Shown here: one piece after another, positions 46,800 to 50,473 of the stretch
Position numbering within the stretch: position 1 is the stretch's first letter
Layout: each line of letters starts with the position of its first letter
NCBI RefSeq assembly: GCF_025677645.1
Contig: NZ_CP106879.1
Coordinates: forward strand, 2,666,001 to 2,730,000
Direction: 5' to 3'
DNA: 64,000 nucleotides
Source of the DNA: Curtobacterium poinsettiae
Lineage (GTDB): Bacteria; Actinomycetota; Actinomycetes; Actinomycetales; Microbacteriaceae
The notes under the pieces: generated by a model
Seen by the model: the letters and a program-made list of their open reading frames with translations, nothing else
The model's database searches: none
What the model was told of the DNA's origin: nothing
Program-made: the position numbers and the translations under genes

Positions 46800-47882
46800 G
46801 TGACGCACGCCCTGTTCGACCCGATCACCGTCCGTGACCTGACCGTCCGCAACCGCATCTGGGTCTCCCCGATGTGCCAGTACTCGGTGGACCAGCAGGA
46901 CGGCGTGGCGACCCCGTGGCACCTCGTGCACCTGGGCGGGTTCGCCAAGGGCGGCGCCGGCGCGGTCGTGGTCGAGGCGACGGGGGTCGTGCCCGAGGGA
47001 CGGATCACCCCGCAGGACCTCGGGCTGTGGAACGACCAGCAGCGCGACGCGTTCAAGCCGATCGTCGACTTCCTGCACGAGCAGGGGGCCGCAGCGGGCA
47101 TCCAGCTGGCGCACGCCGGCCGCAAGGCGTCGACCTACCGCCCCTGGGACACCACGCACGGCACGGTCCCCGCCGACCAGGGCGGCTGGACCACGGTCGC
47201 TCCGTCGGCCGTGGCGTTCGACGGCTACGACGTCCCGCGCGAGCTGGCGGTCGAGGACATCCGCGTCGTCGCCCTCGCCTTCGCGCAGTCCGCCCGCCGC
47301 GCGGTGGAGGCCGGGTTCGACCTGGTCGAGATCCACGCGGCCCACGGCTACCTGCTGCACCAGTTCCTCTCGCCGCTGAGCAACCAGCGCATCGACCAGT
47401 ACGGCGGCTCGCTCGAGAACCGTGCGCGCGCGCTGCTCGAGGTCGTCGACGCCGTGCGCGCCGAGGTCGGCGAGGGCTTCCCGATCGTCGTCCGGTTCTC
47501 GGCCACCGACTGGGTCGACGGCGGGCTCACGCTCGACGAGACCACCGTCGTCGCCCGCTGGGCCGCGGAGCACGGTGCCGACCTGGCCGACGTGTCGACC
47601 GGCGGCAACGTCGCGAGCGCGCCGATCCCGGTCGGCCCCGGCTACCAGGTGCCGCACGCGGCGGCGATCAAGCGCGACGCCGGCATCCCGACGATCGCCG
47701 TGGGCATGATTTCCGAGGCGTTCCAGGCCGAGCAGATCGTCGCGACCGGCCTCGCCGACGTCGTGATGATCGGTCGTGAGATGCTCCGCGACCCGTCGTT
47801 CGCGCTCCGTGCCGCCGTCGAACTCCGCGTGCCGGTCGACTACGAGCCGCAGCAGTACCACCGCGCGCGGATCACGGCGTAG
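46800..47882 (+). CDS. Old yellow enzyme, YqjM-type ene-reductase
   Basis: 360 residues, FMN-dependent reductase of activated C=C bonds. The thermophilic-like/YqjM group is shown by C26 in SPMCQYS, and by HAGRKAS. The His pair in EIHAAHGYLLHQFLSP binds the substrate, and QYGGSLENRAR is typical. GTG start at 46800 with a GAGGAG Shine-Dalgarno sequence. Together with the HAD gene it forms a two-gene unit, ended by the hairpin at 47884. Confidence 0.94.
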   Translation: MTHALFDPITVRDLTVRNRIWVSPMCQYSVDQQDGVATPWHLVHLGGFAKGGAGAVVVEATGVVPEGRITPQDLGLWNDQQRDAFKPIVDFLHEQGAAAGIQLAHAGRKASTYRPWDTTHGTVPADQGGWTTVAPSAVAFDGYDVPRELAVEDIRVVALAFAQSARRAVEAGFDLVEIHAAHGYLLHQFLSPLSNQRIDQYGGSLENRARALLEVVDAVRAEVGEGFPIVVRFSATDWVDGGLTLDETTVVARWAAEHGADLADVSTGGNVASAPIPVGPGYQVPHAAAIKRDAGIPTIAVGMISEAFQAEQIVATGLADVVMIGREMLRDPSFALRAAVELRVPVDYEPQQYHRARITA

Positions 47883-47925: not shown

Positions 47926-47931
47926 GGCAGT

Positions 47932-47937
47932 ACGATT
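47932..47937 (+). promoter_or_regulatory. Probable -10 element of the CNNM transporter transcript
   Basis: TACGAT ends seven bases before 47944, only three bases before the GTG of the leader reading frame at 47947. A TTCACG at 47905-47910 is 21 bases upstream, too far for an ideal -35. Confidence 0.5.
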
Positions 47938-47946
47938 GGCAGCACT

Positions 47947-48038
47947 GTGGACGATCCCCCGAATAGTTCTTCGCCTCACTCATCCGCCGCTCACTCGGTG
48001 AGCTGCACGTCATCCCTGTGCGCGAACGGGGGTGAATC

Positions 48039-48042
<4 letters not shown>
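47947..48042 (+). CDS. Putative 31-residue leader peptide upstream of the CNNM transporter
   Basis: GTG-initiated frame, 31 codons, beginning Met-Asp-Asp-Pro-Pro-Asn and then Ser/His/Cys-rich. Its TGA overlaps the transporter ATG (ATGA), so the two are translationally coupled. The proline codons contain CCCCCG (47956-47961), which can pair with CGGGGG (48027-48032), the likely Shine-Dalgarno sequence of the transporter gene. A GCTCAC/GTGAGC hairpin lies between (47989-48003). Acidic residues and prolines right after the start are known to make ribosomes drop off at low magnesium in enterobacterial MgtL-type leaders; that this peptide works so is inference. No Shine-Dalgarno sequence precedes it, and the start would be near-leaderless. 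Confidence 0.5.
47956..48032 (+). promoter_or_regulatory. Possible Shine-Dalgarno sequestering leader structure
   Basis: CCCCCG at 47956-47961 and CGGGGG at 48027-48032 are complementary. Pairing would hide the ribosome-binding site that lies six bases before the transporter ATG at 48039. A ribosome on codons 4-5 of the leader frame would break this pairing. Intervening hairpin at 47989-48003. Confidence 0.4.
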
Positions 48043-49435
<1,393 letters not shown>

Positions 49436-49439
<4 letters not shown>

Positions 49440-50473
49440 GCTCCGACTGGTGGGGCATCTTCTGGCTCGTCGTCCTGTTGATGGGCAACGCGTACTTCGT
49501 CGCGGCGGAGTTCGCGGTCATCTCGGCTCGCCGCTCCCAGATCGAGCCCCGCGCCGAAGAGGGCTCGAAGGCCGCGCAGATGACGCTGTGGGCGATGGAG
49601 CACGCCACCCGCATGCTCGCGACCACCCAGCTCGGCATCACGGTCTGCTCGTTGCTCATCCTGAACGTGTCCGAGCCGGCGATCCACCACCTGCTCGAGG
49701 TCCCGCTGCACCTGACCGGCTGGAGCGCCGAGGTGATCGGCACCGTGGCCTTCGTGTTCACGCTGCTGCTCGTGTCGTTCCTGCACGTGGTGTTCGGCGA
49801 GATGGTGCCGAAGAACATCTCGTTCTCGATGCCGGACCGCGCCGCGCTGCTGCTGGTCCCGACGCTCTGGTACATCGGTCACGGCCTGCACTGGGTCATC
49901 GTCGGCCTGAACGAGGTCGCGAACGCCGTGCTGCGGCTGTTCCGCGTCGAGCCCAAGGACGAAGCGGTGAGCGCGTTCACGGTGGAAGAGGTGCAGACCA
50001 TCGTGGAGCAGTCCCGGCGGGAGGGCACCCTGACCGACGACGGCAAGCTCGCCCTGGCGTTCGAGTTCACCGAGAAGAAGGTCCGTGACGTCGCCGTGCC
50101 GATGGCCGAACTCGTCACGCTGCCCGACGACGCGACCCCGAGTGACGTCGAGCACGCCGTGGCACAGCGCGGGTTCTCCCGCTACGTGCTCGTCGGCGAG
50201 GACGGCTCCCCCACGGGCTACGTGCACGTGAAGGACGTCATCGACCTGCGTCCGGACGAGTTCGACGACCCGGTGCCGCCGAAGCGGATCCGACAGCTCA
50301 TCTCGCTGTACACCGAGATGGACCTCGAGGACGCGCTCGCGACCATGCGGGCCGCCGGGCGCCACGTGGCCCGCGCCTTCGACGCGGACGGCCGCACGAT
50401 CGGCGTGCTGTTCCTCGAGGACATCCTCGAAGAACTGGTGGGCGAGGTCGAGGACGCGACCCGACGCCGGTAG
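49436..50473 (+). CDS. Second CNNM/CorC-type protein (short form)
   Basis: 345 residues. Membrane domain with FVAAEFAVISARRSQIE and VFGEMVPKNISFSM, then a CBS pair ending FLEDILEELVGEVED. It lacks the CorC C-terminal domain of its neighbour and stops right after the CBS pair. The tandem arrangement, a full and a short protein overlapping by four bases, is common in Actinobacteria and suggests a heterodimer (inference). Confidence 0.92.

Follow-up and report, generated by a model that had tools for sequence, protein, structure and literature searches.

Introduction

Nascent chains that begin with acidic residues and prolines destabilize the translating ribosome, and such starts have been tied to the control of Mg2+ genes in enterobacteria. 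In the mgtL leader, an early acidic-proline stretch (EPDP) causes ribosome drop-off at low Mg2+ and controls the Mg2+ transporter gene mgtA, as described in PMC11282234, and early Asp and Glu residues of mgtQ are described as destabilizing ribosomes (PMC8092293). Salmonella corC is induced by high Mg2+, as is mgpA at neutral or alkaline pH, and a destabilizing N-terminus in CorC is cited in the discussion of the same paper (PMC12421838). In Staphylococcus aureus, cells that have lost MpfA, a CNNM relative, contain more Mg2+ (PMC6711546). In this study, we focused on a short leader frame that ends on the start codon of a CNNM/CorC-family gene in Curtobacterium poinsettiae (assembly GCF_025677645.1, contig NZ_CP106879.1, positions 2,666,001 to 2,730,000 of the forward strand). 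This stretch of 64,000 nucleotides (nt) is called the window below, and all coordinates refer to it unless another locus is named. Comparison with relatives suggests that the leader is conserved, probably leaderless and translationally coupled, and that it carries an Asp-Asp-Pro-Pro gate dedicated to CNNM genes. Labels beginning with L, G and f denote loci, genomes and families of our sets.

Results

Anatomy of the leader and its target gene

The elements on which the argument depends are as follows.

47931..47936, forward strand: -10 hexamer TACGAT of a presumed dedicated promoter (from its sequence; the pattern TANNNT is kept family-wide)
47947..48042, forward strand: leader frame (upstream open reading frame) with GTG start, MDDPPNSSSPHSSAAHSVSCTSSLCANGGES, and TGA stop (from conservation)
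47950..47961, forward strand: codons 2-5, Asp-Asp-Pro-Pro, presumed ribosome-destabilizing gate (from conservation)
47962..48020, forward strand: leader body, rich in C and poor in G, where Rho might load (from base skew)
48039..49439, forward strand: CNNM/CorC-family gene, probable Mg2+ exporter (from Pfam domains and nearest solved structures)

A preliminary description of this DNA had reported the TACGAT hexamer, a GTG frame of 31 codons starting M-D-D-P-P and a stop codon overlapping the transporter start. All three were found, the hexamer being one base off the position first given. The leader starts with GTG at 47947-47949, 10 nt from TACGAT, and its first codons are GTG GAC GAT CCC CCG (peptide beginning MDDPPNSSSP); the TGA at 48040-48042 overlaps the CNNM ATG at 48039-48041 (ATGA). 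Transcription probably starts at about 47941-47945, judging from the hexamer. An open frame is little proof by itself, as the list of open reading frames holds the leader inside a longer mechanical frame from 47776. The leader stands above chance because of the comparison with relatives, not because the frame is open.

The gene at 48039-49439 encodes CNNM, CBS and CorC_HlyC domains (Pfam). The nearest solved structures bear the names CorC and CBS-domain hemolysin, and the protein is 99% identical to its ortholog in C. flaccumfaciens LMG 3645. The product is a probable Mg2+ exporter, the direction of transport being taken from relatives.

Conservation of the leader in Curtobacterium and Microbacteriaceae

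The genus set consisted of 45 Curtobacterium-type loci among 80 fetched loci. All 45 carry GTGGACGAYCC at the leader position, and MDDPP is read in 44. In L041 (C. flaccumfaciens Sample7_18), one base is lost in the Pro codons and the leader is out of frame, reflecting either a sequencing error or a real loss. After removal of the loci without the later AHxVS block (L040, L041 and L042), 42 loci were aligned. The amino acids of codons 1-5 are invariant in all 42, where changes are only synonymous (GAT/GAC, CCT/CCC and CCG/CCT), and insertions in the leader are of whole codons. The string RTGGAYGAYCCNCC occurs once in the 3.76-Mb genome, exactly at the leader, and its backwards control occurs twice.

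The family sample comprised 150 genomes, 149 of which have an ortholog of the CNNM gene; 110 loci were examined and 39 genomes with an ortholog were left out. The strict form of the leader was defined as ATG, GTG or TTG followed by GAY GAY CCN CC. This M-D-D-P-P start precedes the CNNM gene at 89 of the 110 loci, which bears out the expectation, raised in the preliminary description, of a conserved acidic-proline frame before orthologous genes. The other 21 loci were read by hand. Seven of them keep an acidic residue and Pro-Pro (MDEPP in L118 and L186, MGEPP in L177 and L191, MDHPP in L129, MGDPP in L174 and MDDDHPP in L192), and ten have a different start with Asp in the first four residues (MDDHHH, MDDPHH, MDDPGH, MDDSSP, MTDDHSH, MDGSDS, MDGHRP, MSDSSS, MDASSP and MDPASR). 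By eye, all 17 of these variant leaders end on the CNNM start. The length of the strict leaders varies from 11 to 63 codons; therefore it is the end point that is kept, not the body. The upstream neighbor also differs, being the end of an IMP dehydrogenase-like gene in many relatives (by eye) and an oxidoreductase gene in Curtobacterium, and therefore the leader goes with the CNNM gene.

One strict locus, L189 (a minus-strand gene of G041), has no separate leader: there the MDDPP start is part of the CNNM protein itself, joined to it in frame (MDDPPSAELLLLIAG...). Such a fusion would be expected if passage of DDPP has to come before CNNM synthesis.

Past its start, the leader peptide has a second motif, H-[RKS]-P. 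The general form HxP occurs in 38 of the 88 leaders counted, whereas shuffled peptides gave an expectation of 13.6 (highest value 22 in 500 shuffles). It was seen in leaders of L089-L185, for example L137, L149 and L183. A DNA form, CATARNCC, is present in 22 of the 89 strict loci and always in frame, and 15 of these 22 copies lie 29-37 nt before the CNNM start. The codon CAT is rare in the CNNM genes, where it makes up 9% of His codons.

Promoter position and coupling to the CNNM start

TANNNT lies 8-11 nt upstream of the leader start in 88 of the 89 strict loci, against a background of 1.2% of positions at gaps of 9-11. Because of this position, the leader is probably leaderless or nearly so. 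A promoter and terminator scan with E. coli-type models returned neither a promoter site nor a terminator.

At 88 of the 89 strict loci the leader stop is no more than 16 nt away from the CNNM start, with 84 leaders overlapping that start and four ending 0-3 nt before it; the remaining locus is the fused gene. The other two frames gave 22 of 89 (+1) and 10 of 89 (+2) in the same test, and shuffling of the leader interior gave a mean of 67 of 89, with a highest value of 77 in 200 runs. When measured from the start given by protein alignment, the stops of the strict loci listed lie at -14 to +16, the exceptions being L180 (-22) and the fused L189. The locus has the anatomy of a translationally coupled pair, in which stop and start overlap and the second initiation site lies inside the first frame. 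These comparisons suggest that the leader is probably translated and that selection keeps its end at the CNNM start. The Shine-Dalgarno energy of the CNNM gene itself is -5 kcal/mol or lower in 81 of the 89 loci, compared with 24 of 168 control windows.

Specificity for CNNM genes and paralogs

The combined pattern TANNNT-N10-RTGGAYGAYCCNCC gave 64 matches in 61 of the 150 genomes, and the backwards control gave none. Compared by eye, 62 of the 64 matches immediately precede a CNNM gene, either the first or the second paralog, and include the fused case, so that the specific link to CNNM genes proposed earlier is upheld. The other two matches (G022 and G054) are on contigs different from that of the CNNM match in the same genome. 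Among six hand-picked cases of a second CNNM paralog, all six have a leader, beginning MDDPP in five and MEDPP in one.

This genome carries a third CNNM gene (32% identical), and it too is preceded by its own leader.

L002 1409-1465 (own genome), strand not given: leader MDDPHRPPARRRSEAAAR of the third CNNM gene (frame ending on its start)

This leader begins MDDPHRPP, and no TANNNT was found before it. Orthologs of the third gene are present in 11 of 90 genomes, its own included. In two others the leader begins MDDCHRPP and MDDCHRPS, respectively. Five carry a longer frame in which an acidic D-x-H motif comes later, and the leader is absent or doubtful in three. No overlapping acidic-proline leader was found before any of the four CorA-family genes of this genome, in which a search for MgtE found none.

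RNA structure and base composition

Two hairpins lie within the leader.

47989..48003, forward strand: hairpin GCTCAC-TCG-GTGAGC within the leader frame (codons for AHSVS; conserved stem)
48010..48035, forward strand: hairpin predicted to sequester the CNNM Shine-Dalgarno site (GGGGG, 48028-48032; predicted folds)

The stem of GCTCAC-NNN-GTGAGC is identical in 42 of the 45 Curtobacterium-type loci and its loop is variable; therefore RNA (or DNA), and not the peptide alone, is kept there. The hairpin was absent from the 35 other loci of the 80. A role of this palindrome as an operator was set aside, since the genome has only one copy.

By eye, the second hairpin holds the CNNM Shine-Dalgarno site in most of the 36 distinct Curtobacterium versions that were folded. 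Across 20 short versions aligned from these 36, one of the ten predicted pairs is compensatory (U-A in 9, C-G in 8, U-G in 1 and broken in 2). Such a hairpin would make synthesis of the CNNM protein in Curtobacterium depend on leader translation. The whole-leader fold is no better than shuffles (z -0.46), and alternative RNA structures switched by leader translation, of the mgtA or mgtB type, received no support, as neither structure nor site pairing exceeded that of shuffles and a hairpin sequestering the site was seen only within Curtobacterium. The leader may act like the MgtL/MgtQ type through coupling; the subtype with an RNA switch is unsupported. An Rfam search of the region returned a single match, far below the cut-off and attributable to chance. 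The M-box (ykoK) Mg2+ riboswitch RF00380 had no match in the region or in this genome, and it matched in 4 of 60 family genomes (G003, G017, G024 and G051), the 56 without a match being subject to filters that lose weak matches.

The leader body has a (C-G)/(C+G) value of 0.29 in the window, reached by 1.4% of 1938 window tiles. Across the family, leader bodies are 45% C and 21% G with a median skew of 0.35, and a skew of at least 0.3 was found in 49 of 72 bodies against 14 of 513 CNNM coding tiles; 17 of the 89 leaders were dropped from this set for a body shorter than 20 nt or an unclear CNNM start. Such a C-rich body would suit a Rho loading site that is normally covered by ribosomes, and it could equally serve to keep the RNA unfolded.

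Distribution beyond the family

At the order level, overlapping frames before CNNM genes persist in many families with different starts, for example MDDPPSHMP at four loci of f6, MDPDSC at two of f10, [TPH]SDSP...APDDDPHP at four of f7 and MDDSR at two of f9. At the class level, an automatic search gave an overlapping frame at 15 of 42 loci, some of them doubtful. Eleven further class-level examples were selected by eye and should not be taken as a count; frames ending on the CNNM start that were noticed by eye include MGDPPSSS (f37), MSTPPDDPPSRR (f47) and MHHDPPSR (f33). In another actinobacterial family, f36 (L312-L317), the leader that overlaps the CNNM starts is a different one and has a Shine-Dalgarno-like site (for example MKDSDDAGCSSGRPTR). 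It looks, from these comparisons, as if coupling is old and DDPP is a family-level hallmark with scattered echoes.

Neighboring genes

The leader is flanked in the window by two further genes.

49436..50473, forward strand: second CNNM gene, its start overlapping the stop of the first (open reading frame list, Pfam)
46800-47882, strand not given: gene for a flavin mononucleotide (FMN) oxidoreductase, the upstream neighbor (PF00724)

The leader and the two CNNM genes form a chain, and the second CNNM gene possibly belongs to the same coupled unit.

Discussion

Proposed mechanism

We propose that the leader is a ribosome-destabilizing gate that is translationally coupled to an Mg2+ exporter, so that the exporter is made at high Mg2+. 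This proposal, drawn from comparative sequence, has in our judgment an even chance of being right. Mg2+ sensing, argued by analogy with the enterobacterial systems, is the best single reading of the leader, and we consider it about evenly balanced against all others together. The dedicated promoter would give an RNA starting 2-6 nt before the leader start, onto which ribosomes would load in leaderless fashion, as the position of the hexamer suggests. Asp-Asp-Pro-Pro would then be decoded with the exit tunnel still empty, and when Mg2+ is short the ribosome would fall apart there, as expected from the known effect of such starts. Ribosomes that pass DDPP would reach the stop at the CNNM start and hand over or open the site, which is consistent with the conserved overlap. 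High Mg2+ would give exporter and low Mg2+ none, a sign opposite to that of mgtL. Aborted ribosomes would uncover the C-rich body, and Rho may then end transcription.

Several observations weigh against this proposal. By hand reading, the leader is absent at 4 of the 110 family loci (L166, L187, L190 and L195), and none was found before the CNNM gene at any of the 10 loci of f18 or the 4 loci of f20 that were read. Beyond Microbacteriaceae and part of a second family, the overlapping frame is often kept and DDPP is not; acidic residues at positions 2-5 are in modest excess over 22 families (13% compared with 6% at later positions; p = 0.01). The overlap test is partly favored by its design, given that shuffled interiors already reach 67 of 89, and the CNNM start used in it was the in-frame start codon nearest the leader stop, a choice that favors overlap. 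Sequestration of the CNNM site showed no excess family-wide (67 loci, 0.684 compared with 0.669 in shuffles, p = 0.17), and independent CNNM initiation is possible given the good Shine-Dalgarno site of the gene itself. Rare codons at positions 4 and 6, described below, are odd for a pure peptide signal and may reflect tRNA or RNA effects. The CCT and TCT codons give a pyrimidine run that would resemble the 3' end of 16S rRNA. Direct Mg2+ transport by MpfA is described as unproven in PMC6711546.

Alternative explanations

The main rival is that the gate senses the decoding of proline: Pro-Pro, often with the rare CCT codon, would stall ribosomes according to elongation factor P (EF-P), 1-methylguanosine-37 (m1G37) of tRNA-Pro or proline supply, and coupling would pass the effect to the CNNM gene. 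Codon 4 is CCT in 70% of the 89 strict leaders against 3.2% of 526 Pro codons in the CNNM genes (CCT or CCC together, 97%), and several variants keep Pro-Pro (MDEPP, MGEPP and MDHPP). The m1G37 methylation of tRNA-Pro is made by an Mg2+-dependent enzyme, and Gall et al. are said to have reported in 2016 that EF-P and TrmD have roles at mgtL. However, codon usage at the second proline is more even (CCT 42%, CCG 29% and CCC 27%), conservation of the two acidic residues equals that of the prolines, and there are variants in which Pro-Pro is gone but the acid remains (MDDHHH, MDDSSP and MDDPGH). We regard this explanation as unlikely, though it survives better than the others.

Slightly less probable is plain coupling, in which the leader only sets the CNNM level by leaderless loading and handover, and DDPP slows the first ribosomes with no response to metal. 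In its favor, DDPP is found less widely within the order than overlapping frames whose start is of the leaderless type, and leaderless transcripts are described as common in mycobacteria (PMC4633059). However, plain coupling does not need five constant first residues, and MDDPP is kept at 89 of 110 loci while the bodies vary in length and, by eye, in sequence. The confinement of the promoter and motif to CNNM genes in 62 of 64 matches also speaks against it.

It is improbable that the conserved element acts as DNA or RNA, such as an operator or riboswitch, with the frame incidental. The rare codons give this explanation some ground: besides codon 4, codon 6 is TCT in 49% of leaders compared with 2% in CNNM coding sequence. 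The first Curtobacterium hairpin likewise has a stem that never varies in the 42 loci, silent positions included. Against it, changes in codons 1-5 are synonymous within the genus, insertions and deletions keep the frame, the frames end on the CNNM start, the sole Rfam match is a chance one and the leader as a whole does not fold better than shuffles.

A functional small protein that acts in trans on the CNNM protein is more improbable still. The peptide is encoded beside the CNNM gene at 105 of 110 family loci and is enriched in the H-x-P motif, but past the first five residues neither its length nor, by eye, its sequence is kept.

The preliminary description had proposed an RNA switch in which pairing with the Pro codons blocks the CNNM ribosome-binding site and the ribosome's position sets whether that site is open. 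The letters CCCCCG (47956-47961) and CGGGGG (48027-48032) are indeed present in the window and complementary; their pairing is neither predicted nor conserved. The expected number of pairs is 0.001 in the window, and over 74 of the 89 loci it is 0.35 compared with 0.30 and 0.23 after codon replacement. At 36 of 76 loci, binding of the first 21 nt of the leader to the site was no stronger than that of shuffled versions (mean values -13.9 and -13.3), and the Pro codons persist at the 15 of 89 loci that lack a Shine-Dalgarno-like string. With two or more expected pairs at only 5 of 74 loci, no clear co-change of the two elements and a duplex energy like that of shuffles, such an RNA switch is the least credible explanation of all. 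Coupling appears to fit the anatomy of the locus better than a competing hairpin.

Comparison with known systems

To our knowledge, there is no account of Actinobacteria sensing Mg2+ to control export. Searches of openly licensed PubMed Central papers, judged by titles and the opening parts of abstracts, turned up no leader peptide reported for CNNM genes of actinobacteria. More tentatively, and with less confidence than in the gate itself, we suggest that the leader represents an ancient actinobacterial class of leaderless, ribosome-stability-sensing leaders for CNNM exporters. Such leaders would serve more than one CNNM paralog per genome, Rho would remove the message, and the class would have arisen outside enterobacteria as an export-side mirror of mgtL. 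The ribosome itself would then report Mg2+ by surviving or failing at Asp-Asp-Pro-Pro. The leader is short, portable and highly conserved and makes a clear prediction of sign, so that the question is testable with one reporter and four codons.

Upstream frames are described as controlling the next gene in mycobacteria, also Actinobacteria (ilvB1, whiB7 and cysteine genes; PMC13236596). They are presented as sensing amino acids or antibiotics by stalling, and that text mentions neither magnesium nor CorC. YoaL overlaps the region upstream of mgpA (YoaE) and its loss lowers MgpA translation, whereas the passages on it in PMC12421838 do not describe it as acidic-proline or leaderless. In CorC (YbeX) of E. 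coli and Salmonella, too, a destabilizing start goes with a protein of Mg2+ efflux that increases at high Mg2+ (PMC12421838), but there the destabilizing sequence is inside the protein, as in the fused L189. CorC and YoaL/mgpA also differ from the CNNM leader in target protein and phylum.

There is also a likeness to MgtL and MgtQ. As in these, a short frame lies directly upstream of an Mg2+ transport gene, with translation judged from conservation and transport from the protein family, and acidic residues stand among its first residues (MDDPP at 89 of 110 loci). MgtQ, the leader of Salmonella mgtB, is described as very short and as carrying Asp/Glu among its early residues, and it influences how the following gene is translated (PMC8092293); it differs in lying between two genes, in that its translation frees a sequestered site and needs the acidic codons, and in that its target is made at low Mg2+. 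MgtL of Salmonella and E. coli shares the short leader, the early acidic and proline residues and an Mg2+ transport target, but its target is an importer, which abortion turns on through RNA refolding and Rho. The CNNM leader, by contrast, precedes a probable exporter in Actinobacteria, has a leaderless-type start and overlaps the start of its target, and abortion should turn that target off. If the broader reading is right, the same physical property of the ribosome would serve both import and export of Mg2+, and the sign would depend on the way in which the leader frame joins the gene that follows.
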